Shown here: positions 901 through 54,558 of the stretch, piece by piece
Numbering within the stretch: the stretch's first letter is position 1
Layout of the letters: each line of letters opens with the position of its first letter
Origin: a virus
Strand: one strand, 5' to 3'
IMG/VR virus record: IMGVR_UViG_3300028553_000005
Coordinates: 1-64,000 of that record
Length of the DNA stretch: 64,000 nucleotides
The notes under the pieces: generated by a model
Databases searched by the model: none
Told to the model about the DNA's origin: nothing
What the model saw: the letters and a program-made list of their open reading frames with translations, nothing else
Made by a program: the position numbers and the translations under genes

Positions 901-1581
901 TTACGCCTTTATCGGTTTTCTCCGAATAGACATAAGAACCGGAGTTTTTTTCTTTTTCAAATTGACACCTGGTTCACCACCAAGGCCACCTGTACCAGCG
1001 ATTGCACCACGACCAACAACATTTGTTGGTGCTGCAGCTACAACACCATCTTCTTCTAAATCGGTACTTTCAGGTACACAATTAGGTACCATTCTATTGC
1101 CTTTTTTCTTCATACCTCTAGCTACATATCCTTGCCAGCAAGCTTCAAAAACACTTTCGGTTCTCACATTAATTGGTGCACCACGGCGTTCTGGATTTGG
1201 ATCTTCTCTACGCTTTCTACGAGCTGCAGAAGCACGACCTTCTTTGCCTAAAGCGTGAGCTTTAGCTTGAGGTAAACATTTTGGTTTACCTTCACCAGGA
1301 TCTCTTGCACAATCACCTTTGATATTGCCTTTGGTGTCCATACGAACCCATTTTTGTTTAAACCACTTTCGTAAATCTTCACTCAATTCAGTTTCTTCAC
1401 CAAGACTTCCTTGGTGTAAAGTATTGAGATGGTGCATTACTTCTTTTGTTTTATCTGATATTTGGTTAAACAGTTGAACACGTTCTTCATCGGCCATAGG
1501 ACCTTTTAGTTTGTGCCTGAGATGGTTCAAATCTGCTTGAACTCTTACAAAATCTTTAAATGTTAATATGTCGTAATTCAT
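901..1581 (-). CDS. Conserved T4-like marine phage protein, DUF5872-like basic domain
   Basis: This 226-residue protein carries a highly basic central domain (about residues 70-145). It has the pattern KWFKQKWVRMDTKGNIKGDC, then KCLPQAKA and AARRKRREDP. I recognise this as a domain of unknown function common in marine T4-like phages, probably DUF5872. A Gly/Ala-rich linker and a basic end (KKKKTPVLMSIRRKP) follow. The start overlaps the upstream stop as ATGA. The basic charge and the neighbourhood of head-interior candidates suggest a DNA-associated virion protein. That role is inferred only. Confidence 0.7.
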   Translation of the reverse strand: MNYDILTFKDFVRVQADLNHLRHKLKGPMADEERVQLFNQISDKTKEVMHHLNTLHQGSLGEETELSEDLRKWFKQKWVRMDTKGNIKGDCARDPGEGKPKCLPQAKAHALGKEGRASAARRKRREDPNPERRGAPINVRTESVFEACWQGYVARGMKKKGNRMVPNCVPESTDLEEDGVVAAAPTNVVGRGAIAGTGGLGGEPGVNLKKKKTPVLMSIRRKPIKA

Positions 1582-1970: not shown

Positions 1971-2453
1971 TTATTCTTGTGGTGGTTGCTTTTCGCCTTC
2001 TGGATCTAAATGTTCAGTTTCATCAGATACTATTTCATCCAAACCTGCATCATCAGTAACCACAGCATAACATTCATAATGGCCATCTTCGGATATACCA
2101 TAACTGAAATAGAAATAATAGTCTACTTCATCATTTGGATTTGTTGTTACGCCATCAGTATCAACACCGTGTTTTTCTCCAAATTGGTTTATTGCAACAA
2201 CTTCTTCACCATCCATAATATCATCAAATATTACTCTAGGTAAACTAACACCATAAAGAGCCATTAATTTTGAAGCTCTAATCCATGCAACATAAGGATT
2301 TAAAAAGTGAGGATCTAAAGCTGCATATAGATTATCATTGATTTCATCACGAGTTTCTTCTTGTGATAAATCTACAGTTTCTTTAGAAATGGAGATGACC
2401 GGCATAGCCAGTCCATCTCCACATTCACTAACATACCTTCTAAATGCTAACAT
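1971..2453 (-). CDS. Acidic conserved protein, possible head-interior protein
   Basis: This 160-residue, strongly acidic protein begins MLAFRRYVSE, a short amphipathic leader ending in Glu. Similar leaders occur on several other proteins in this block (6272-6592, 6579-8384, 8386-9531, 55092-55313). The middle is rich in Asp, Tyr and Phe, and the end is Glu/Pro-rich. Start and upstream stop overlap as TAATG, so it is coupled to the Ig-like structural gene. I see no enzyme motif. Packaging into the prohead is inferred from the leader and the neighbours. Confidence 0.6.
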   Translation of the reverse strand: MLAFRRYVSECGDGLAMPVISISKETVDLSQEETRDEINDNLYAALDPHFLNPYVAWIRASKLMALYGVSLPRVIFDDIMDGEEVVAINQFGEKHGVDTDGVTTNPNDEVDYYFYFSYGISEDGHYECYAVVTDDAGLDEIVSDETEHLDPEGEKQPPQE

Positions 2454-3139
2454 TAGGCAACTACATCAAGCTTAGCAGGTGTAGAAGTTACTGCTGTAGC
2501 TCCTGTGCCTGTTGCATTGATTACTACACGATAGTAGTTATTGTCCGCATCAGTAAATGTAGGTGTGATTACTAATGCAGCAGTTGTTCCACCAGTGTAT
2601 GTTGTATTTGCAGGTGTTCCGTTTGATACGTTTACATAACTTCCACCAAGTGTTGCAGAACGCTGCCATTGGAAGGTCAACGGTGCAGCTGTATTGCCTG
2701 TGGTGATACTTGCTGTTACACGGAATGTAGCAGTATTGCCAACAGTCAAGTTAGCAGTGTTGCTACCTGGTTGTGAACTAATGGTGATAATAGCATCTTC
2801 ATATGTGGTATCTTCATCATCACCACTAAAGCTTGAAATGGCTACCAAAACTTCTTGTTGAACACGGTTAGCACGGCCACCAGAACCAGTAGTCCTTAGA
2901 ACCCAGCCAGAATGGCCAACGTTACTATCAACTGAGGATTCGTTGGCATCGACTGCAAAAAGGCCAATCGTTTCACCAACTGTATAGACATCAGCTGTAG
3001 TGTTTGCATACAGACGGGCTACGTTATCTGCTGTTGGTGCAGAATAGTTAGCCTTTACGTTTGTGGCGTTTACAATCGTTGAATTAACAGCCCAATATGG
3101 TGCATTGGCTGCGTTATCGTTATTTCCCCATGAGGACAT
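2453..3139 (-). CDS. Virion structural protein with C-terminal Ig-like domain
   Basis: This 228-residue Thr/Ser/Asn-rich protein has an N-terminal region opening SSWGNNDNAANAPYWAVNST, a pattern seen in T4-like virion proteins. From about residue 115 to the end there is an immunoglobulin-like beta-sandwich: ITISSQPGS, NTATFRVTA, FQWQRS and a closing YYRVVI strand. Such domains are usually displayed on capsids or tails and may bind host-surface carbohydrate. The gene has a strong ribosome-binding site (AAGGAG). A GATAAATA octamer, one base off the late promoter, lies about 32 bases upstream. A Hoc-like decoration role is possible but not shown. Confidence 0.7.
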   Translation of the reverse strand: MSSWGNNDNAANAPYWAVNSTIVNATNVKANYSAPTADNVARLYANTTADVYTVGETIGLFAVDANESSVDSNVGHSGWVLRTTGSGGRANRVQQEVLVAISSFSGDDEDTTYEDAIITISSQPGSNTANLTVGNTATFRVTASITTGNTAAPLTFQWQRSATLGGSYVNVSNGTPANTTYTGGTTAALVITPTFTDADNNYYRVVINATGTGATAVTSTPAKLDVVA

Positions 3140-3170
3140 CTTCTTCTCCTTATTATTGAAGGTTGTTAGT

Positions 3171-3178
3171 TATTTATC
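3171..3178 (-). promoter_or_regulatory. Possible late promoter variant (GATAAATA)
   Basis: On the minus strand this reads GATAAATA, one mismatch from the T4 late octamer TATAAATA. It sits 32-39 bases upstream of the Ig-like structural gene, after the stop of the preceding gene. A late promoter fits a virion gene, but the mismatch makes it a weak call. Confidence 0.4.
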
Positions 3179-3185
3179 TTATTTT

Positions 3186-5069
3186 CTATCTTGTTTTACT
3201 ACCGTCTTGTGGACCAGCATCTGGTTGATTAGTACGTTTCTTCATAGATGGATCAATCTCGACAGTATCCCTATCTTGACCAGTTAAAGTCTTACCACCA
3301 GTCATTATGGCCACCGCTTCCGGTTTGTTTTCACCCATACTATCTTTTTCATCGGTCATGGCCATCTTAGGTTTTTTACCATAACCCTTTGTTGATTTAT
3401 CGTCTTTTTCCCAATCATACATATCTTCTTTCATATTTTTAGACTTATATAAAGACTTAATTATACGAGCAGATTTAGACATTTCACGTTTCATTGGTGA
3501 TGTGTCATTTGTATTATTGGCACCATCAAAAGGCATTTGAGTTGCTGCCTGAGAATCGTGATATACATCTTCGGATGTTGGCTTACGACCAGTTTGACGG
3601 TCTATTGAACGGTCGATACCTGCAGAAACCTTTTTGATTCTTGCATTACGTGGTTTGGTAGAAGTTTCACCTGATTTTTTCTTTGTATATGAAAAATCTG
3701 TCAATCGTTTACTATGATAAGATTTAACTGTGGACATCTTTAATTCATCAATCTGTTTAACTTCTTCATCAATACCACTTCCATGAAATTTATGAGCAAT
3801 ATGCATTGCCATTTTTTCATGTTTTTCTTTTGGTACATTAGTACTTCTTAAATACGATAAAGCTGATTGGTGAACTTTGTTATCATCTCCAGCATCACTA
3901 TTATAAGGAGCATGTTCAGAATTTACCCATTGATGAAAATGATGGTCGACTTCTGAACTAGAAACTTCATCAATTTGTTCAACTTCTTCCTTCATCTTCA
4001 TTTCATCTTTTCTTTTACCAAAAGTGGAATGTACAAGAGTATCTAACTTTTTATGAAATTTAGTTTCTTTAGCTTTACTGATTCCTACATCCTCTTTATT
4101 CAAATGTTTTTCTAAACGGTCAATAGCACTAGTCATACCAGAACCATCTTTGGATTGTTTCTTTTCAATTTCAGCATGTTTCTTTTCACGCTCAGCCGAT
4201 GCTTTGCGGAATCTTTCTAATGCTGTCGGTTTCTTTTCTTCAGAAAATGACCGTTTAGCCATAATCTTGGCTAATTTACTCATTGCTTTCTTACGAGGTT
4301 CGGCACGCTTTGGATCTTTACTAGTTGTTTTGAGAACATAAGATGCCAATGTTTCTGGAGCCAACTCATCAAGTTGTTTATGTTCTACTTGCTCTCTATT
4401 CAATAAAGCACGATGCTCGTGGTCAATAGGAATAGAATGTTTTTGAATTAAGGCTCTCAACATTTCTCTACTTCTGGTTTTTGTTGAAGTAGTTCCTGCT
4501 GTAGATACTTTTTTAATGGCTCTGTGTACAGCTGATGTTGCTGTTGGCTCATCAGAATGTATAGCCATTAAATTTTTTAAATGTTTTTTTACAGTATCAT
4601 GGTCTAATTGAGTAGGTTCATGAGACCTACTACTACGAATTCCCATACCAGAAACTTCATCAATTTGTTCTTCTTTTTGTAATCTTTCATCAGGTTTATG
4701 GTCACGTAACCATTTTGCAAATTCACCAGACTTAGAAAAGCTAACTTTTTTATCTGTAGTAACAAATTTAGGATCAAGGCCTCTTGATGATAAAAATCTA
4801 TTTAACCATTTATCTTCGTCTAATTGAATTTCCTCAACAACATGATCTTGTTTCCATTTTAAGAAGGCGCTCGACTTAGCATGAGAAATTTTAGTATCTT
4901 TGGAAACAAATTTAGGATTGATTCCTCTAGATGATAAAAATTGATCCAATGTTCCGTCTGCTTCATAGATTCCTGCTTTTGCTGACCATGGGTCTGACGG
5001 ATCTACACCAAACCTAGGTCTTGCTGGTGTAGGATTCTTCTTAACGATATCTCTTAAATTTTTAGCCAT
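3186..5069 (-). CDS. Large head-interior candidate with repeated Q(I/L)DE motifs
   Basis: This 627-residue protein is very hydrophilic and basic (Lys, Arg, His, Ser-rich). It has five Q(I/L)DE sites, ending at about residues 85, 138, 235, 368 and 442, often preceded by acidic EEVE. They divide the chain into domains. The first two are tandem copies of one unit of about 35 residues (FLSSRG(I/L)(N/D)PKFV, then a K-S-S-x-F-x-K-W end). The T4 prohead protease gp21 cuts after (L/I)-x-E, so these sites look like processing points. The related motif-bearing protein lies directly upstream. A role as a packaged polyprotein, like T4 internal proteins, is inferred. No enzyme signature is visible. Confidence 0.65.
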   Translation of the reverse strand: MAKNLRDIVKKNPTPARPRFGVDPSDPWSAKAGIYEADGTLDQFLSSRGINPKFVSKDTKISHAKSSAFLKWKQDHVVEEIQLDEDKWLNRFLSSRGLDPKFVTTDKKVSFSKSGEFAKWLRDHKPDERLQKEEQIDEVSGMGIRSSRSHEPTQLDHDTVKKHLKNLMAIHSDEPTATSAVHRAIKKVSTAGTTSTKTRSREMLRALIQKHSIPIDHEHRALLNREQVEHKQLDELAPETLASYVLKTTSKDPKRAEPRKKAMSKLAKIMAKRSFSEEKKPTALERFRKASAEREKKHAEIEKKQSKDGSGMTSAIDRLEKHLNKEDVGISKAKETKFHKKLDTLVHSTFGKRKDEMKMKEEVEQIDEVSSSEVDHHFHQWVNSEHAPYNSDAGDDNKVHQSALSYLRSTNVPKEKHEKMAMHIAHKFHGSGIDEEVKQIDELKMSTVKSYHSKRLTDFSYTKKKSGETSTKPRNARIKKVSAGIDRSIDRQTGRKPTSEDVYHDSQAATQMPFDGANNTNDTSPMKREMSKSARIIKSLYKSKNMKEDMYDWEKDDKSTKGYGKKPKMAMTDEKDSMGENKPEAVAIMTGGKTLTGQDRDTVEIDPSMKKRTNQPDAGPQDGSKTR

Positions 5070-5071
5070 GA

Positions 5072-6256
5072 TTAGTCCTGTTTACTAATTTTTGTTCTGT
5101 CTTGTACTTTTTTAAATGCTAAACGTGCTAAATCTTTAGCACGACTCATTGGTGTGTGAATCGCACCAGACTTATCTTTAACGTCCTTTGGCATTTTTTT
5201 CCAGCCAGATGTTCCAGCGATTGTTGCTTCATCAATTTCAACTTCTTCGTTTTTCTGTTTTGCATAATAAGCAGCAAGAGCCATTTCTTTACGTTTTGTT
5301 TTTGACTTACCAGCAAATTTAGGATTATCAGAATGTACGAAATCACTAATCCAATCGCCTGCAGTTGCATCTTTACCGAGAACTTCATTAATCATTTCAT
5401 CAAGTTGTTCCTCAGTATATTCTTCTACTTCTTCTTTTGTTGACTTCCAACCACCACCCATTGCTTTGTATTTTTTAGATGCCCAACCATTTGCGTAAGC
5501 AGATGGGTATACAGCAAACTTAGATTTAGCAGCTGCTTTTGCACGAGCCCATTTTTCTGGACTTGTAGGTACATTTTTTTCATCAATCTGCTCAACTTCT
5601 TCATTTGTTTCTTTTTTACCTGTGAGAAAACGACCAAGGTTTTTTAGGTCACTCTTAAAAGAACCTGGTTTATCTTTTAAATGGCTTTTATCAGCAACAT
5701 CTTGGTTCTTTTCTGGAGATTTTTCTAAAGCCTCAGGCATCACAACATCTTTTTTCTCTTTCATTGATTTCCATTTTTCTTCTAAACGAACAGAAAAAGA
5801 TTCTTTCACTTTCTTTTTACCACGGAGAATGGCAAAATCGTGTGCATCAATTTTATTATTTTTGTTTGCATCAATCTTATGTTGATCACCTTTTAATTCT
5901 TCAGCAACTTTTTTGGTGCTGGCCAAAGCTTTCTTCATAGGCTCTGTTTTATTGCCGTCTTTATCGAAATCCAAATAATCTGGCTTGGCAGCTTCATCAT
6001 ATTTGCCTTTCGTTTTCTCATAATCTTCTTTATCTTTTTTCATCAAATCTTTTGTTTTAGGACCCTTGAGGTCATCAACAGAAGATTTACTTTGATCTTG
6101 TTTAGCCTTTGCAGAATTACCATAACTACGGCCATAAACTTTCATGCCGGTTGCCGTAGGTTCTTTAATTGGTGCCACTTCTTCCAATGATTGTTCTTCT
6201 AGAACTTTATTTACTGCGTCAATCATTGACTGGCTTACTTTATTTTTTGTGAACAT
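5072..6256 (-). CDS. Head-interior candidate with EEVEQIDE motifs and EF-hand-like loops
   Basis: This 394-residue protein begins with a possible capsid-targeting helix (MFTKNKVSQSMIDAVNKVLE). It then shows two calcium-binding-type loops, DFDKDGNKTE (about 96-105) and DANKNNKIDAHD (129-140), the latter a good EF-hand pattern. Candidate gp21 cut sites of the form (I/L)-D-E occur near residues 226, 287 and 343. Segments between them include a WARAKAAAKSKF...KYKAMGGGW module common in aquatic T4-like phages. The ribosome-binding site is GGAG. It is followed after two bases by the next motif-bearing gene. Packaging and proteolytic maturation are inferred; the function is unknown. Confidence 0.65.
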   Translation of the reverse strand: MFTKNKVSQSMIDAVNKVLEEQSLEEVAPIKEPTATGMKVYGRSYGNSAKAKQDQSKSSVDDLKGPKTKDLMKKDKEDYEKTKGKYDEAAKPDYLDFDKDGNKTEPMKKALASTKKVAEELKGDQHKIDANKNNKIDAHDFAILRGKKKVKESFSVRLEEKWKSMKEKKDVVMPEALEKSPEKNQDVADKSHLKDKPGSFKSDLKNLGRFLTGKKETNEEVEQIDEKNVPTSPEKWARAKAAAKSKFAVYPSAYANGWASKKYKAMGGGWKSTKEEVEEYTEEQLDEMINEVLGKDATAGDWISDFVHSDNPKFAGKSKTKRKEMALAAYYAKQKNEEVEIDEATIAGTSGWKKMPKDVKDKSGAIHTPMSRAKDLARLAFKKVQDRTKISKQD

Positions 6257-6271
6257 TTTATTCTCCGTTTA

Positions 6272-6592
6272 TTAGCAGTTCCACTTGCGTAATGCTTTGT
6301 TAATTCTTGAATCTGGATCTCTTGCTGTCTTAGCAGATGTCAATCGTTTCTTCATTCCACCCATACGAGCACAAAACGATTTTCTACGATTAGCAGCTTT
6401 AGAACCTGGTTTTAGTTTAGATGGTTTTGTTGTTACAGCCATCGACAATTTAGAACCTGGATTTTCTCTACGATATGATGCAATACCTTTACGATTTAAG
6501 CCACCTTCTGGATCTTTACCTGCAGAACGTTGCCATGCTGGTGATTTCTCATCCAAATATTGCTCAGAAATAAATTGTTTAAATTTTAACAT
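6272..6592 (-). CDS. Small basic protein (DUF6321-like) with cleavable leader
   Basis: This 106-residue protein has the leader MLKFKQFISEQYLDE followed by a compact basic domain. The domain contains PAWQRSAGKDPEGGLNRKG, GSKAANRRKSFCARM and a terminal RINKALRKWNC. I recognise the domain as a widespread phage family of unknown function (DUF6321). The leader ends in Y-L-D-E, an L-x-E site that gp21 could cut. The start overlaps the upstream gene by 14 bases. A packaged, DNA-binding head protein is a reasonable inference from charge, leader and neighbours. The conserved Cys residues could bind metal, but this is not certain. Confidence 0.7.
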   Translation of the reverse strand: MLKFKQFISEQYLDEKSPAWQRSAGKDPEGGLNRKGIASYRRENPGSKLSMAVTTKPSKLKPGSKAANRRKSFCARMGGMKKRLTSAKTARDPDSRINKALRKWNC

Positions 6593-8384
6593 TTTTTTTC
6601 TTCTTTATAGTTACACCAGATAAAGCAAATTTATCTGCTGGAGTTACTAAAGGTTCTTTATTACTTGCGCCAGACATTGATCCGGCTAAACCCATATCAT
6701 TGGCTCCCGGATCATCTATTGCTTCTACATATTGTCTAAACTTCTTAAATTCTTTTTCTTCACGATAAGTTACATCGCCCATTCCTGACATAGGGTATAC
6801 TGTTCCCTGTTGGCGAGTGTCGAATTCTGGTCCTACACCTTGGGATCGAATAGCACCAGAGGCACTATTGACCCATCTTTTCTTTTTGTTTACTTGCTCT
6901 TTGTCTTTTTGGAAGTTTGGCTCTTTGGCTTGGGGCTGGACTTCGACCTTGGGCTGGCTTTCTTCGTAGGTGCGGAAGGTGTAACTTGAGTTACTTTGGA
7001 CGTCTCCGTCTTTAACGCTGTCGATTCGGCCGGCTTTTCGTTGGAGCTGGCAGCTGGGGCAGTTGTTGTCTGCGAGGAATCGGTGTTGTCCACATCCTTT
7101 GGTTTTAGCTTTAATAAATTGACTAGGGCTTTTAACATTTTTTTGTTCCTTATATAATGAATTAATATTTAATTTAGAGTTTCGAATCAACCAATCTTCG
7201 GCAGTTTCGTTAAAAGCCTTAGAATCCAAGAAGTTATTTGTTTTCTCATAAACTTCATGTATATCTTGCTCTTTACTATCTATATCTCCTGTATTATCAA
7301 AAGATACAAATCTATCAAAGGTCTCTATGAAATATTTAGTATTTTTTTGAGATTTCAACCATTTGTCTTGCCTAATCGATTCAACCATCATTCTAGCCAG
7401 TAAAAAGTTTCTTTCCCTACTGGTTTCATTGGTGGTATTGACAAAAACCATTAATGTATCGTAACCTAGTTCTTCCAGTTCTTCTTTGATATACGATATT
7501 CTGGTGGTGTCATCCGCTGGGCCATTGATTATTAATGGACCACGATTTCTAATTGCTTCATGGCGGTAATCACTTGTTTTTTCTGACAATTTTTGTTTAT
7601 CGGCCAAATATTCTTGAGCCTGTATGAAGTTTAATTCAACGATTCGAGATTCGGAGATAGCTTCACGGATAATGATATCTTTACCAGAACCTGGACCGCC
7701 AGTAACAAAAACAGCTTTAAACATACCACGATCAAACGATTCATGTAAACCCATACCCTTACGGGTATCGTGCATCAATTCTTTGGCATGAGAATCGGAT
7801 ACATGAGAAGGAACACCTTTCCTAAACTCACCAAAGTTCTTACTCTTGGCATGTTCTCTCATCTTCGTAGCTGACATACCCTCTGTACCTTCTGCGTCTG
7901 GATCACGGTGTCCTGCAGAATGGACAGTAATCTTTTTGAAATGGTATTTACCATGACCAGCCTCTACACCATTGTATTTGTGTAATAGGTGGTGCATTTC
8001 TTTGACACGGTCAGAACCAACAACAACATGAAGATGTGTAACTCCACTCTTATGTGCTTCGGCTGCATGGTGTAATATTGTTGGTTTCTCTTTTGAAGCT
8101 GCAACAAAATTGGTATTATCTGATTTCTTGGCTTCTGTTATAGGACCAGCAACATATCGCTTTAGATGTTTGATTTTTTGTTGAGCAGTTAGTGGATTCT
8201 TTTTGCTATCTTGTGTATGAGAAACAACAATGGTATGAGTTGCATTATTTTTCTTTGCAACCTCTTTAACTTTGTCAATTAGTTTTAAATGGCCAGCAGT
8301 AGGAGGGCTCATTCTACCAAAGGTAATAACATGGTGTTTTTCACCTTGTTGTTCTTCTTTGATTACGTCTAAAAATGATTTCAT
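6579..8384 (-). CDS. Bifunctional nucleotidylyltransferase and P-loop kinase-like protein
   Basis: This protein of about 601 residues starts at the ATG giving MKSFLDVIKEE. Next comes a cytidylyltransferase/NMN-adenylyltransferase fold with GRMSPPTAGHLKLI (HxGH-type motif) and a late SATKMREH (ISSTxxR-like). Near residue 230 there is a P-loop, VTGGPGSGKD, of a kinase-like domain. The C-terminal third is low in complexity and holds a CxxC pair, and it ends in a conserved phage tail with GPEFDTRQQGT. NadR-type fusions act in NAD salvage, so NAD metabolism is the likely role. The leader resembles a capsid-targeting sequence. A second ORF is nested in another frame at 6890-7138. Confidence 0.75.
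   Translation of the reverse strand: MKSFLDVIKEEQQGEKHHVITFGRMSPPTAGHLKLIDKVKEVAKKNNATHTIVVSHTQDSKKNPLTAQQKIKHLKRYVAGPITEAKKSDNTNFVAASKEKPTILHHAAEAHKSGVTHLHVVVGSDRVKEMHHLLHKYNGVEAGHGKYHFKKITVHSAGHRDPDAEGTEGMSATKMREHAKSKNFGEFRKGVPSHVSDSHAKELMHDTRKGMGLHESFDRGMFKAVFVTGGPGSGKDIIIREAISESRIVELNFIQAQEYLADKQKLSEKTSDYRHEAIRNRGPLIINGPADDTTRISYIKEELEELGYDTLMVFVNTTNETSRERNFLLARMMVESIRQDKWLKSQKNTKYFIETFDRFVSFDNTGDIDSKEQDIHEVYEKTNNFLDSKAFNETAEDWLIRNSKLNINSLYKEQKNVKSPSQFIKAKTKGCGQHRFLADNNCPSCQLQRKAGRIDSVKDGDVQSNSSYTFRTYEESQPKVEVQPQAKEPNFQKDKEQVNKKKRWVNSASGAIRSQGVGPEFDTRQQGTVYPMSGMGDVTYREEKEFKKFRQYVEAIDDPGANDMGLAGSMSGASNKEPLVTPADKFALSGVTIKKKKNVKI
6890..7138 (-). CDS. Possible overprinted gene nested in the adenylyltransferase-kinase gene
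   Basis: This 82-codon ORF lies wholly inside the larger gene, on the same strand in the +1 frame. Its ATG follows a well-placed AAGGA eight bases upstream. The product starts MLKALVNLLKLKPKD and becomes Thr/Ser/Pro/Lys-rich, ending in a basic low-complexity tail. Across the same bases the host gene encodes a variable linker, and the region is visibly richer in G and C than its flanks. A real dual-coding gene is plausible, but so is a chance ORF created by composition. Confidence 0.4.
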   Translation of the reverse strand: MLKALVNLLKLKPKDVDNTDSSQTTTAPAASSNEKPAESTALKTETSKVTQVTPSAPTKKASPRSKSSPKPKSQTSKKTKSK

Positions 8385-8385
8385 C

Positions 8386-9531
8386 TTACTTTGCAAACCT
8401 AGGGTTATTTAAAATTGAATTAGACACTTTAACAGGAACAAGCTTTGTCATAGGTCTCATTTTACCTTCTTTATCTTTTTTCTGTAAAACAATACCTTCA
8501 CCTTGTGACTTTTTGCCATCTATACTTGTTTCCATATCAGGATGAGATACACCTTTTAATAAATGTTCTGTTGCTTGGCCTAAATGATGGCGTATATCTA
8601 AAGACCTTTGAAAGTGTTTAGCATTATCATCAACATGGCTTTTTAACTTATCAAACTCTGCTTGCTTTCTTACTTGACCAACAGGAGTCTTTAATTTGTT
8701 TACTGCTTTTTTTGCTTCACCATCTAAGTGTTTTTTATAACCTTCAATAGAGGCATTTTCACCTCTTCTTGTTGTTCTATTTAAGTATGTAGTAAAGTGT
8801 CCACCCTTCTTAACATTTATGTGTTCTGGTGTAAGATGTTCTGAAGTATGTTTCTTTAACAACTCTTTTGCTGCATCTAAATGTTTTTCTGTAGATTGTC
8901 TATCTTTTTCAGAATATGTTTCTGGATTTGCTTTATATTCATGTTCTGGCACAAAGACATTATTACTGTGTTTCAATGCATTCTTAGTAACACCATGTGC
9001 AACACCTTTTGTTATTTCTGTGTGGACTGCAAGACCTATTGGTGCTTTTGTTTTTGCTTTATATGTAATTCTATTAGGAGTTGTTTTTGTTACATCTCCA
9101 GATTTTTCTCCAGGAGAGTCCGGTGTGTGTAATAAATCTCCTTGAACATGGTGTCCTTTGTTAACAAACTCGTGACCATGTTTCAATAATCTTTTTAGTG
9201 ATGCTGCATATTCTGGTTGATGACCAAAATGTTGGTCTACTTCTTTTGGTGTCCTGGCAATAACACCTCTGGCTATTCTATGCTTATCGGATACACCAAC
9301 ACCGTCTTTATCATGTATAACATGAACAGAGGCACCACCATCAGTTTTTAACGAGGCACCAACAGAACTTTTTTGTCCCATTCTTTTTTTGTGAAATTGG
9401 TCTATTAAATCGATTGCAGTCTGTGCATGTTTTGGATCTTCATGGGGTAGGTCTTTAGTATGAGTAAGATGACCAAGCATCTCATCATCTACGGATGTAG
9501 CTTCCCTCAAGAATGTTAAAAATGACTGCAT
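8386..9531 (-). CDS. ATP-dependent ligase-like nucleotidyltransferase (DUF6267-like)
   Basis: The start at 9531 (MQSFLTFLREA) has AAGGA nine bases upstream, so longer readings are unlikely. The product of 381 residues shows nucleotidyltransferase motif I as SLKTDGGAS (Lys as the nucleotide acceptor), HVQGDLL in the motif III place, QGEGIVLQ as motif IV, and MTKLVPVK as a motif V-like end. This fits the covalent nucleotidyltransferase (DNA/RNA ligase) superfamily. Substrate and partner are unknown. The N-terminal leader matches those of neighbouring head candidates. A late promoter octamer sits 57-64 bases upstream. It overlaps no neighbour; the next gene's start lies two bases beyond its stop. 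Confidence 0.65.
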   Translation of the reverse strand: MQSFLTFLREATSVDDEMLGHLTHTKDLPHEDPKHAQTAIDLIDQFHKKRMGQKSSVGASLKTDGGASVHVIHDKDGVGVSDKHRIARGVIARTPKEVDQHFGHQPEYAASLKRLLKHGHEFVNKGHHVQGDLLHTPDSPGEKSGDVTKTTPNRITYKAKTKAPIGLAVHTEITKGVAHGVTKNALKHSNNVFVPEHEYKANPETYSEKDRQSTEKHLDAAKELLKKHTSEHLTPEHINVKKGGHFTTYLNRTTRRGENASIEGYKKHLDGEAKKAVNKLKTPVGQVRKQAEFDKLKSHVDDNAKHFQRSLDIRHHLGQATEHLLKGVSHPDMETSIDGKKSQGEGIVLQKKDKEGKMRPMTKLVPVKVSNSILNNPRFAK

Positions 9532-9587: not shown

Positions 9588-9595
9588 TATTTATA
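9588..9595 (-). promoter_or_regulatory. T4-type late promoter TATAAATA
   Basis: The minus strand carries an exact TATAAATA about 57 bases before the ligase-like start codon, in the gap after the glycan cassette. gp55, which recognises this octamer in T4, is encoded at 46244-46780. It would drive the 9531-to-901 head-interior block late. Confidence 0.75.
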
Positions 9596-50891: not shown

Positions 50892-52220
50892 TCACATTAG
50901 GTTTTTGACGCCAAACAAACGATAGTAAACGTTTGAACGCTCTGTCAAAGCACCATTGCCTACCAAAGAACCCTTGGCGAATGGGTTGGCTACCATTCCG
51001 TAACGAGTTTTGAAACCAATCTTTGGTTGGAATGTGAACTGGTCTACAGCACGAACCATCTGTAATGGAACGTATGGGCAATAGAACAATCCAGCATCGT
51101 ATGGGCTAGAACCTTTGTAACCGATGGTTACTAGTTCTTGGTTGCTTGTGTATCCACCAAAGTATGGGTCGATGTAAACCTTGATACGACCATGGAGGAG
51201 ACCAGCAAATGTATTGCCTGTGTCATCTACTTGCAAATCAGCAGACAAAGCAGGAGTATATTGCAATACACCAGCCATTGCCATAGCGGAAGCAACGTCA
51301 GAAGAAACGATCAATACGTTACCTTTTCCACGGCGAGTCTGCTTAGCAATTACGTTAGCATCACGCTCAATTTGGAAAATGAGGCCCTTGAAACGCTCAA
51401 CAGACCAACGGCCGTTGGAATCTGTATCGAGGTCAAAGAAACCAGCAGTTGTTGTACCATACTGAGCACCGGCAACGGCAGTCGTGTAAATGGTACGAAT
51501 AACTTCACGGTTGATCTCAGCAAGGATTTCTGTAGACAGAATGTTAGACAATTCTGTTTCAGCATCAAGACCATGAATCGCTTTTAAGTCTTGTGCAAGT
51601 TCTAAAGAATACTCAGCTTTCAAGGCACGGCTTTGAGCTGTTACAGTTACTTTCTCGATAGAGAATGCCATTTGCTGGAAAGCATTAGCAGGACTATCAG
51701 AACCCAAAATTTCAGCGTTAGCTGTTGGCATTGCAATACCAGAGGTAGTTGTCAATGATGCTGGATTTTGGAATGTGTTAGCTGTATCTTGTGCTGTTGT
51801 ACCTTGGAAACCGTATGGGTTTGTTGCAGATACAGAACCAGAGAACTGTGTATTTGGCTCATTGAAGAAAGCCTCAGTACCGTCTTGTGTACTGTAACGA
51901 GCACGCATTGCAAAAATCAAACCGGTAGGACCTGTCATTGGTTGAACACCAGCAACGTCATAAGCGATTAGATTTGGCAGAGCACGGCGTACCAAGCTGA
52001 TCAAAATTGGATCAAAGTTCTGAATTGCATTGCCAGTAGCATTCTCTGGACCTGTTACAGTAACTTCGTTTAGGGCCATACGGTCTTGCGACATAGCTTG
52101 TTGTTGGTTCTCTAATACGAGAGCTGTAACAGCACGCTTGTATGGGTCTTTAATGGCTTCAAGTTCTGGATGCTCCAAAACTGGTGTCCATTTTTTTTGT
52201 AGTTCTTCAGTCATATACAT
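50892..52220 (-). CDS. 23: Major capsid protein gp23
   Basis: This 442-residue HK97-fold capsid protein has the conserved gp23 blocks (FDPILISLVRRALPNLIAYDV, then GPTGLIFAMR, and YYRLFGVKNLM at the end). The N-terminal about 52 residues look like the delta domain, ending in RMALNE. The gp21 protease should cut after E52 (L-N-E), so the mature form starts at Val53. T4 cuts after residue 65. AAGGA lies upstream. A strong terminator follows. Confidence 0.97.
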   Translation of the reverse strand: MYMTEELQKKWTPVLEHPELEAIKDPYKRAVTALVLENQQQAMSQDRMALNEVTVTGPENATGNAIQNFDPILISLVRRALPNLIAYDVAGVQPMTGPTGLIFAMRARYSTQDGTEAFFNEPNTQFSGSVSATNPYGFQGTTAQDTANTFQNPASLTTTSGIAMPTANAEILGSDSPANAFQQMAFSIEKVTVTAQSRALKAEYSLELAQDLKAIHGLDAETELSNILSTEILAEINREVIRTIYTTAVAGAQYGTTTAGFFDLDTDSNGRWSVERFKGLIFQIERDANVIAKQTRRGKGNVLIVSSDVASAMAMAGVLQYTPALSADLQVDDTGNTFAGLLHGRIKVYIDPYFGGYTSNQELVTIGYKGSSPYDAGLFYCPYVPLQMVRAVDQFTFQPKIGFKTRYGMVANPFAKGSLVGNGALTERSNVYYRLFGVKNLM

Positions 52221-52251: not shown

Positions 52252-53442
52252 TTATTTGTTTACAGTTTGTGAAATTGCTTTTGAGTAAACTTCCATCAAA
52301 GGATCGGAAGATTTTACAACCTTCTTTTCTTCTTCAATATCGACTTCATCATCTAGAGCGGAATTGTCTGCTACTTTAACTTCCGTTTTAAAATATGATT
52401 CTTTTAAAGTGGATAGTTTTTCGACAAACTCTCCCTCAGTAGTAAATTCCACACCCTCTGCGAGTGATTTTAATTTTTCTACTTGGGTCTGCGTCAGGCC
52501 TTCACACGCTGTGTAGATAGCCTCAATTTTTTTCTGTTCGTTTAATTCTTTTTTAAGTTCGATACCATGAGTAATCTGCTCATTTAAAGAAGCCTCAAGT
52601 TCTTCAACTCGTGTTGTGAGTTCTTCAACAACGTCTACCTTGTCGGCAGGAATGTCGATGTAATGCTCAATGAATAGATTGCGTAAACCGCCAATGAAAT
52701 CTTCAACAATCTCAGCACGTAGGCCTTTCTCGATTGCAATTTCATTTTCTTTCATCCATTGCTCAACAACATAGTTTAGGTAATCGTCAACTTTAGTTGC
52801 CAAATCTTCTTTAACTTCTTCAATGGCACTTTCAAATTGCTCAAGTAACTCGGCTTCAGCTTCAGCAATAACTTCTTCTGCACGTGCAACAACGGCAGCT
52901 TCAAATATTGTGGCAGCTTTTTGTACGAATTCTTCAGAAAGATTTTCGCCAGACATTAAAGCGTCAATATCTTCCTTCATTTTTTCTTTGTTAATCATTT
53001 TTTTGATCATGGCTTTATCTTGTTTTTCATCATCATGGCCTTCTTCTTTTTCAGCTTCAGCAATAACTTCTTCTTCAGCTTCAGTTTCTTCGCCATAAGA
53101 CTGGAATGTGGCACCAGGATTTTTAGCAAACTTCTGTGAAGCAGCTTTGCCTTCTGGTTGCTCATTAGAACCTTGCTCTTGTGGTTGCTTTGCCAACTTC
53201 TTCATTGGCTCAGAACCTACAGGAGGTGTGGCACCAGGAGCGGTTGCTGTTGGAGCACCCTTAGTTGCATCTGGACCAGCATCGGTTGTTTTAGTAACTT
53301 CTGTACCAATGTCGCCAGCTTCTTTTGTGCCGTAAGCAACATCGCCAGTTAATTTTTGTGGTTTATCTTGGCCAGACTTTTTGCTTGTTACAGATGCAGA
53401 AAGTATTTCTTTAGCGGCTTCAGACAGATTAAATTTTGCCAT
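52252..53442 (-). CDS. 22: Prohead scaffold gp22
   Basis: This 396-residue, Glu/Lys/Ala-rich protein is mostly helical. Sites of gp21 type (VIAE, SLNE, ELNE, SLAE) are spread over the chain. It is the core on which the prohead forms and is cut to small peptides by gp21 in T4. The C-terminal end (MEVYSKAISQTVNK) probably binds the capsid. It is longer than T4 gp22 (269) by an N-terminal Pro/Thr/Gly-rich part. A late octamer and AAGGAG precede it. Confidence 0.9.
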   Translation of the reverse strand: MAKFNLSEAAKEILSASVTSKKSGQDKPQKLTGDVAYGTKEAGDIGTEVTKTTDAGPDATKGAPTATAPGATPPVGSEPMKKLAKQPQEQGSNEQPEGKAASQKFAKNPGATFQSYGEETEAEEEVIAEAEKEEGHDDEKQDKAMIKKMINKEKMKEDIDALMSGENLSEEFVQKAATIFEAAVVARAEEVIAEAEAELLEQFESAIEEVKEDLATKVDDYLNYVVEQWMKENEIAIEKGLRAEIVEDFIGGLRNLFIEHYIDIPADKVDVVEELTTRVEELEASLNEQITHGIELKKELNEQKKIEAIYTACEGLTQTQVEKLKSLAEGVEFTTEGEFVEKLSTLKESYFKTEVKVADNSALDDEVDIEEEKKVVKSSDPLMEVYSKAISQTVNK

Positions 53443-53479: not shown

Positions 53480-54124
53480 TTAAAGTTTTTTCATGAAGTT
53501 CTCAAAAATGCGTAGACTTACTTCTTCGATTTCCTTACTCGTTGCCTTCCTAATTTCATTGACGGCTTGAGTGTATTCGACTTCGGTCCAAACACCGTTG
53601 ACTAACATCCATTCTTTACCTTCCATAATGCCTTGAACAAATGCTCCAGGCGCAGAAGGATCTGCTACTATATCTGCCGCTGTGGCTAGATAAAAATCGG
53701 GCTGAACGACATTAACTCCATTGACATTCTTTAGTGAGCCCATGCCCCGTGAAGATACACCTAATTGAGCACCGCCTTCAATAAGACTTTTGGCGATATT
53801 ACCCATAGGAGTATCTAAAATTTTTGCTTTACCAATCCATTGGTTACCATCTTCTTTTAAAGATGTAATCATGTGTGAAACTCGGTCTAAGTTAATAGAT
53901 GGAGATTCTGGATGACCTAGTTCACCAAAAGCACGGTGTTTGTTAATATATTCTTCCGTGTATCTGGAAACTTCTTTTTTCATGGTGTTATACTCATACA
54001 GACGACCATTACGATTTTTCTTCTCAGCAACCAGGAACGGTCCTTCTATATGTAAAGACTTTTTACCATTAGAATCTTCTACAAGATAACTAACAGTTTC
54101 GGTTATTTCTTTGATTAATTTCAT
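53480..54124 (-). CDS. 21: Prohead core protein and protease gp21
   Basis: This 214-residue serine protease of the phage prohead family (S78/U9-like) has the catalytic His in AFGELGHP (H71) and Ser in LGVSSRG (S124 or S125). In T4 gp21 cuts after (L/I)-x-E in gp23, gp22, gp24, gp67, gp68 and the internal proteins, then itself. Substrate-like sites are numerous in this window, see findings. It overlaps the core protein gene by four bases. Confidence 0.95.
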   Translation of the reverse strand: MKLIKEITETVSYLVEDSNGKKSLHIEGPFLVAEKKNRNGRLYEYNTMKKEVSRYTEEYINKHRAFGELGHPESPSINLDRVSHMITSLKEDGNQWIGKAKILDTPMGNIAKSLIEGGAQLGVSSRGMGSLKNVNGVNVVQPDFYLATAADIVADPSAPGAFVQGIMEGKEWMLVNGVWTEVEYTQAVNEIRKATSKEIEEVSLRIFENFMKKL

Positions 54125-54558
54125 AATCCGTATGTTCCTCTTCTTCTGAGTGATATCCTTCTTTTTCTTAAAGACTGGCTCATTTTAGCCCGTCTTTTAA
54201 ACTTAGCTCTTCTGGCTGCCATTTTACGATGTCTGCGTTCCATGGGTGACATTCGAATCATTTTCCCACCACGAATCGTAAAACCAGGTACAGCAGATAA
54301 CTTTTTACGTCTTTGTACTTTACCAGCACGAATACGGATCCGAACCATTTTGGTTCTACCCATTTTCATTATATTGCCTTCAGCAATATTTTCTATTTCA
54401 AAATCTACTTCAACACCACAATCTTCAAACATTTCTGCCGCCATGCGGAGTTTTATTTGGTTGATTTTGTTTTCAATCAACTTTTTTAATTTTTCATCTA
54501 AAACGTTTTTTGCTTCTAAAACATTATTAGAAAGAAGTTTTGAAACAAACTCACTCAT
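54121..54558 (-). CDS. Basic prohead core protein (gp68-like)
   Basis: This 145-residue protein has an N-terminal helical half (SEFVSKLLSNNVLEAKNVLD) and an extremely basic C-terminal half (RIRIRAGKVQRRKK, RRHRKMAARRAK, RRISLRRRGT). It carries an I-A-E site near residue 59 that gp21 could cut to release the basic tail. T4 gp68 (141) has the same place between gp20 and gp21. DNA packing in the head is a likely role; homology to gp68 is not shown. Confidence 0.6.
   Translation of the reverse strand: MSEFVSKLLSNNVLEAKNVLDEKLKKLIENKINQIKLRMAAEMFEDCGVEVDFEIENIAEGNIMKMGRTKMVRIRIRAGKVQRRKKLSAVPGFTIRGGKMIRMSPMERRHRKMAARRAKFKRRAKMSQSLRKRRISLRRRGTYGL

Follow-up and report, generated by a model that had tools for sequence, protein, structure and literature searches.

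Proteins A and B, encoded by two adjacent open reading frames within the opening 64,000 nucleotides (the window) of a virus record of 136,428 bases, are probably cassette polyproteins of the prohead core that would be packaged and then cut by the head protease gp21. The window encodes T4-like gp17, gp18, gp19, gp20, gp21, gp22 and gp23. The modules of A and B are small, mostly helical and about 35-100 aa long. Their borders carry an (L/I)-x-E site, often within an acidic EEVEQIDE linker, and gp21 would cut after the glutamate during head maturation, so that several small proteins would arise from each chain. For B, the predicted pieces are about 36, 49, 53, 97, 133, 74 and 185 aa long. The linkers double as seams for the gain, loss and swapping of modules between phages, and the content of small head proteins could thereby vary under unchanged packaging and processing. 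The two strongest facts were absent from the initial annotation of this DNA: phages recombine a shared pool of modules at these very sites, and modules of this pool also stand behind T4-type capsid-targeting sequences.

The start codon of B lies 2 bases past the stop codon of A. The two genes and their sites are as follows.

5072..6256, minus strand: protein A, a linker/module protein of 394 aa (ORF, three [QE][IL]DE sites)
5579..5602, minus strand: A linker EEVEQIDE-KNVPT, predicted cut after E226 (P1 E and P3 I/L conserved across relatives)
5396..5404, minus strand: A site LDE (E287), from the motif count
5384..5392, minus strand: A site INE-VLGKDA (E291), by motif; the relative L099 has a targeting sequence there
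5228..5236, minus strand: A site IDE (E343), from the motif count
3186..5069, minus strand: protein B, a linker/module protein of 627 aa (ORF, five [QE][IL]DE sites)
4962..4970, minus strand: B site IYE (E36), preceding the RGIN module; E36 is invariant in 24 homologues
4815..4823, minus strand: B site QLDE (E85), from the motif count
4656..4664, minus strand: B site QIDE (E138), from the motif count
4365..4373, minus strand: B site QLDE-LAPETL (E235); the LAPETL module is missing from the close relative L001
3966..3989, minus strand: B linker EEVEQIDE-VSSSEV (E368); DNA homology to L001 ends 5 bases past the linker
3744..3752, minus strand: B site QIDE-LKMST (E442), by motif and junction comparison

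The initial annotation had counted at least eight Q(I/L)DE or EIDE sites in these two proteins. Exactly eight [QE][IL]DE sites were found, ending at E226, E287 and E343 of A and at E85, E138, E235, E368 and E442 of B, whereas shuffling of the residues predicts 0.07, and none of 5000 shuffles reached eight. All [IL].E sites together numbered 15 against 7.6 expected, a count reached by 26 of 5000 shuffles. That the sites mostly follow EEVE was correct in so far as acidic linker variants recur (EEIQLDE, KEEQIDE, VEHKQLDE, EEVKQIDE, TEEQLDE and EEVEIDE), but the exact EEVEQIDE occurs only twice, at codons 3966-3989 and 5579-5602. All seven [IL].E sites of B fall between modules. The AlphaFold2 model of B was modest (pLDDT 62.8) and consisted of helical blocks, with six of the seven sites in stretches of pLDDT below 50 (p about 0.007). 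The claimed division into small domains is therefore backed for B, whereas the low quality of the AlphaFold2 model of A precluded such a judgement. A PDB fold search with B returned a best E-value of 0.05 and no usable match. The KNVPT module of A matched phrog_27331 (E 6e-6).

T4 gp21 cuts after L/I-x-E (PMC9026906). The protease and other head genes were located in the same window.

53480..54124, minus strand: gp21 prohead protease, Peptidase_S77 (PF03420, E 2e-32; phrog_207)
52252..53442, minus strand: gp22 scaffold (phrog_237), with 14 [IL].E sites
50892..52220, minus strand: gp23 major capsid protein (phrog_138); ALNE ends at residue 52
54121-54558: 145-aa protein adjoining gp21, containing NVLDE

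Sites of the same form had been noted for gp23, gp22 and a gp68-like protein. The gp23 site indeed ends at residue 52 and gp22 carries its 14 copies. The protein called gp68-like has its NVLDE, but it matched no family and owes the name to its position. We searched 33 records for the S77 protease, all of them motif-bearing. It was present in 8/8 records above 115 kb and in 12/14 above 100 kb; the two exceptions also lacked gp23 and are presumably fragments.

Conservation of the sites was examined at junctions anchored on a module and not on the motif. For the KNVPT module 56 junctions were listed and one inside an intein was left out. In the remaining 55, which span about 36 different upstream contexts, P1 was Glu in 55/55 and P3 was Ile or Leu in 54/55, with a variable P2 (D, E, N, S, M, I, Q or R). 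Junctions without EQ[ILV]DE kept the same residues (P1 Glu 34/34, P3 I/L 33/34). The GKDA module gave a similar picture, with I/L in 41/46, Glu in 42/46 and a variable middle residue. TALERF junctions had a site in 10/22 and none in 12/22. At the level of sequence, this junction conservation is the gp21 rule, L/I-x-E, and the comparison thus came out as the initial annotation had anticipated, P1 and P3 being held while P2 and the neighbouring residues vary. Within modules, [IL].E was only weakly depleted, at an observed/expected ratio of 1.08 compared with 1.35 in control ORFs, and this was dropped as a line of support. As a separate observation, one polyprotein has an intein-like insertion within its KNVPT module (L145:1939-6231, minus strand, residues about 870-1030 and on), with a weak match to Pfam Intein_splicing (E 6e-4).

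T4 IPIII is directed to the head by its first ten residues, of which positions 4 and 7 are important in targeting and positions 8 and 10 in processing (PMC9026906); in T4, the cut is lost on a change from Glu to Asp at position 10. We encoded these four positions in a regular expression of the form M-x-x-[FY]-x-x-F-[IL]-x-E. Among 2500 ORFs of the loci retrieved, 162 matched, compared with 0.4 expected from shuffles, a count that is not independent as the loci are related. Of the 331 ORFs of the 136-kb record itself five matched, and four of them flank A and B at 1971-9531. The N-termini of A and B did not match the classical targeting sequence. The flanking genes are listed here.

6272..6592, minus strand: DUF6321 module protein (PF19846, E 5e-19), targeting sequence MLKFKQFISE (strict regular expression), second site YLDE
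6579..8384, minus strand: cytidylyltransferase-like protein (phrog_3041, E 1e-61), targeting sequence MKSFLDVIKE
8386..9531, minus strand: DUF6267 protein (PF19782, E 3e-24), targeting sequence MQSFLTFLRE
1971..2453, minus strand: 160-aa protein, targeting sequence MLAFRRYVSE

Modules that follow a linker in one protein stand directly behind a T4-type targeting sequence (MKTFKQFIxE-) in another. This was seen in 3 cases for KNVPT, 22 for DUF6321 and 8 for ACWQGY. Thus MKTFSQFITE-VKKPTGKLKD pairs with TKQVDE-VKKPTGELKD, and MKSFKQFVEEIQNLEE-KNVPT pairs with EEVEQIDE-KNVPT. Similarly, the N-terminus MKSYKDMINE-VLTKS of L099 stands where A has QLDEMINE-VLGKD. Altogether 28 linker proteins of other phages bear a targeting sequence of their own, and L163 is a cytidylyltransferase with a targeting sequence and two linkers. 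A C-terminal tail, PTNVVG.GAIAGTGG.GGEPGV.LKKKK, was also noted in 36 ORFs (window 901-1030, L148, L003, L005 and others); some proteins of 59-64 aa consist of a targeting sequence and the PTNVVG...LKKKK tail only.

Homologues of the module proteins have been detected in virions. Purified virions of S-SM1 contained the cytidylyltransferase T4-GC190 (PMC3037559). For CsCl-purified S-CREM2, Table 3 of the mass spectrometry report lists gp154, gp155, gp156, gp160, gp136 and gp137 (PMC10665884). S-CREM2 gp154 is a cytidylyltransferase with the N-terminus MKNFSSFLTE, so that the window protein at 6579..8384 has homologues in published virion lists of both phages, and gp136 begins with MQTFSMFFSE. 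The C-terminus of gp137 is a DUF6321 module, homologous to that of 6272..6592. The homologue of gp160 in the window is the following protein.

901..1581, minus strand: module protein (DLRKWF, ACWQGY and GEPGV-KKKK tail)

At its C-terminus gp160 has a KNVPT-like module behind EETEISE, with the junction EETEISE-GKKDACYHKVKARYDVWPSAYASGA. The peptide GGF[ST]G[SA]A..GPVAG[FY]DP, which in the major capsid protein lies just past the predicted cut, was seen again in small proteins that are not capsid proteins. Carriers of this GGF[ST]G...DP peptide are L235 gp160 (residues about 28-50), L164, L189, L195, L218 and L228; it could be a capsid docking mimic.

From these comparisons we infer that A and B themselves are packaged and that gp21 would cut them at their linker sites. 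Prohead entry, as initially proposed, is supported by the targeting sequences on flanking genes and linker homologues and by the virion detections as far as these are published in the sources cited. Cleavage at the repeats, as a prediction from sequence, gained strong comparative support from the P1 and P3 residues, the equivalence of targeting sequences and junctions, the module swaps described below and the co-occurrence with gp21. Counting against this reading are the site-less joins (TALERF, 12/22), the only mild depletion of [IL].E within modules, the missing classical targeting sequence on A and B, the DNA-level part of linker conservation described below, and the uninformative model of A. 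Because that sequence is missing, we do not claim membership of the IP family for A and B.

What would happen to the pieces bears on a rather unlikely alternative, namely that A and B are cut as a scaffold like gp22: they would shape the core and be destroyed to make room for DNA, with few or no pieces staying or being injected. As only the fate after cutting differs, it overlaps with the polyprotein reading. gp22, gp67 and gp68 of T4 are processed at multiple L/I-x-E sites and for the most part exit the head (PMC9026906), and the 14 sites in gp22 here fit such a course. In the S-CREM2 list the scaffold was detected with 7 peptides, the protease with 4 and gp160 with 7 (PMC10665884); since scaffold and gp160 have similar counts, detection does not prove retention in mature heads, and the listed proteins may be leftover core material. 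In that report, as far as it was consulted, no peptide termini are given for the virion proteins. In contrast to a scaffold, however, the modules form compact, conserved units, among them cargo-like domains (HicA-like, cytidylyltransferase, DUF6321), the sites lie between modules rather than throughout, and modules alone behind targeting sequences follow the plan of those T4 internal proteins that the head retains and later ejects.

The cargo-like domains were identified by scanning 62 polyproteins, which gave HicA-like matches in 4, DUF5824 in 2, DUF5661 in 2 and DUF6321 in 1; 4/62 matched cytidyltransferases. By pattern, the HicA-like unit was found in four ORFs (L131, L145, L149 and L168). 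It opens with MPGANM right after the first of two bounding sites, the pair being LDE and I[KN]E in three ORFs and LTE and LEE in the fourth. By its bounds, the unit looks as if a whole small protein could be excised. Injection of the pieces, also part of the initial annotation, is only suggested, mainly by these HicA-like toxin modules, and the same holds for ejection into the host and for effector roles. Two further features of the neighbourhood were recorded. An Ig-like/S-layer-like protein follows B (window 2453-3139; phrog_613 head protein, E 7e-15), and an S-layer domain protein likewise follows the equivalent genes in S-SSM5, S-SM1 and HTVC008M. The T4-like late promoter core ATAAATA occurs on the minus strand at 9588-9594, upstream of the block starting at 9531, and at 3171-3177, upstream of the gene starting at 3139; it was discarded as late-promoter evidence because the window holds 14 copies against 33 expected, rarer than chance.

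Relatives of A and B are mosaics of shared modules. A given module may be part of A in one phage and of B in another; it may also stand by itself, or be fused into a cyanophage T4-GC119 protein, for example in S-BM3. Across a non-redundant set of 220 proteins, local homology most often stopped on its right side at the Glu of [IL].E (6.7-fold above background), and the left ends started about seven residues ahead of this Glu. Part of the peak is expected as the linker itself is shared, and the direct comparison with the relative L001 therefore weighs more. L001 has 82-87% DNA identity to the window across the locus. In L001 the DLRKWF and ACWQGY modules of 901-1581 are missing, the gap being bounded by LSE and LEE seams, and its B counterpart lacks the LAPETL module. 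Furthermore, ISKSTLASY replaces VSSSEV and LKMST, the DNA break lying five bases past EEVEQIDE. Modules are thus gained, lost and swapped exactly at the sites, even in this 82-87% identical relative.

Seams of this kind could also exist without any cleavage. It is improbable, but conceivable, that the linkers are only acidic spacers and recombination seams, the modules shuffling via shared DNA and the proteins staying uncut. The homology breaks located at linkers would fit this, and so would the position of the B sites in low-confidence, probably flexible stretches. Linker codons are also more uniform than the rest of the genes: within linkers Gln was encoded by CAG in 67-74% compared with 27-32% elsewhere in the same genes (about 100 independent contexts, p about 3e-13), the share being 67% in the roughly 100 linkers with unrelated modules on either side. 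The linker must therefore spread, or be homogenised, at the DNA level, in line with a recombination seam, and identical linkers alone are no evidence for a protease; diverged junctions are. There, P1 Glu (34/34) and P3 Ile/Leu (33/34) are kept where the linker DNA has changed, and modules also follow targeting sequences ending in (I/L)-x-E, the form that gp21 processes in T4. Both observations favour the cut polyprotein over an uncut spacer.

The linker was followed in larger collections. A scan of viral contigs gave 27 relatives of B and 80 kept relatives of A, and the back-translated EEVEQIDE pattern occurred in at least 120 stretches there. Bacterial and archaeal genomes totalling 257 Gb contained it as 21 single matches; 20 of these lay in unrelated proteins, and the remaining one was on a phage-like MAG contig. 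The linker is a phage signature, and EEVEQIDE as a general protein feature was rejected on these 21 matches. Among named phages, B had zero direct matches and A matched S-BM3 only, across one module. The gene order beside the cytidylyltransferase is conserved in S-B43, S-SSM5, HTVC008M and Melnitz. That A and B are cytoplasmic, drawing on a shuffled domain pool shared with head proteins and never entering the prohead, is very improbable: it would explain their missing targeting sequence, but not the homologous module proteins in the published virion lists, the targeting sequences on 28 linker proteins or this kept gene order.

If A and B are cut polyproteins, many hypothetical proteins of T4-like aquatic phages would become readable, since the sequence would allow prediction of their module borders, packaging and mature peptides, and phages would have a route to alter the proteins carried into the host cell. 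The exact peptide ends are predicted, and existing virion mass spectrometry data, for example those of S-CREM2, can be searched for them. More tentatively, and with less than even likelihood, marine and freshwater T4-like phages may share a cassette pool in which the linker is both swap seam and in-head protease site, the set of small effectors carried and ejected would change, and HicA-like RNases among them would be harmless in the uncut polyprotein. A literature search for the motif string found no paper, and the proposed cassette-polyprotein design with its dual-use seams is undescribed in the literature as far as searched.

Several known systems resemble A and B in part. The inner-body and ejection proteins of phiKZ and SPN3US are head proteins cut by a gp21-like protease, as proposed here, and SPN3US propeptides are cut at several places (PMC10052503). 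However, the phiKZ cleavage motif is S/A-x-E, which the junctions with I/L at P3 do not match, and long propeptides are removed there, whereas here modules would be released. The cyanophage T4-GC119/DUF6321 proteins (S-BM3, P-SSM2 gp114, the 'structural protein' of S-B43) contain the same modules LRKWF, KNVPT, CWxGY and DUF6321 and share [IL].E-type junctions, with fewer EEVEQIDE linkers; they are annotated as hypothetical or structural only, and a description of their processing was not found in the literature consulted. T4 gp22, gp67 and gp68 have several L/I-x-E sites per chain and no classical targeting sequence, like A and B, which differ in being mosaic: their modules are compact and exchangeable, and in relatives some of them show recognisable domains. 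T4 IPI-IPIII and Alt, whose capsid-targeting sequences are cut by gp21, share the M-K-x-[FY]-x-x-F-[IL]-x-E sequence with the neighbours of A and B and with some linker proteins, and are also alike in the L/I-x-E sites and in the S77 protease present in the record. In contrast to these, A and B have no classical N-terminal targeting sequence, and where a T4 IP gene has one targeting sequence and one mature protein, here many modules share a chain with a site at most borders. On the best reading, A and B work like T4 internal and core proteins.
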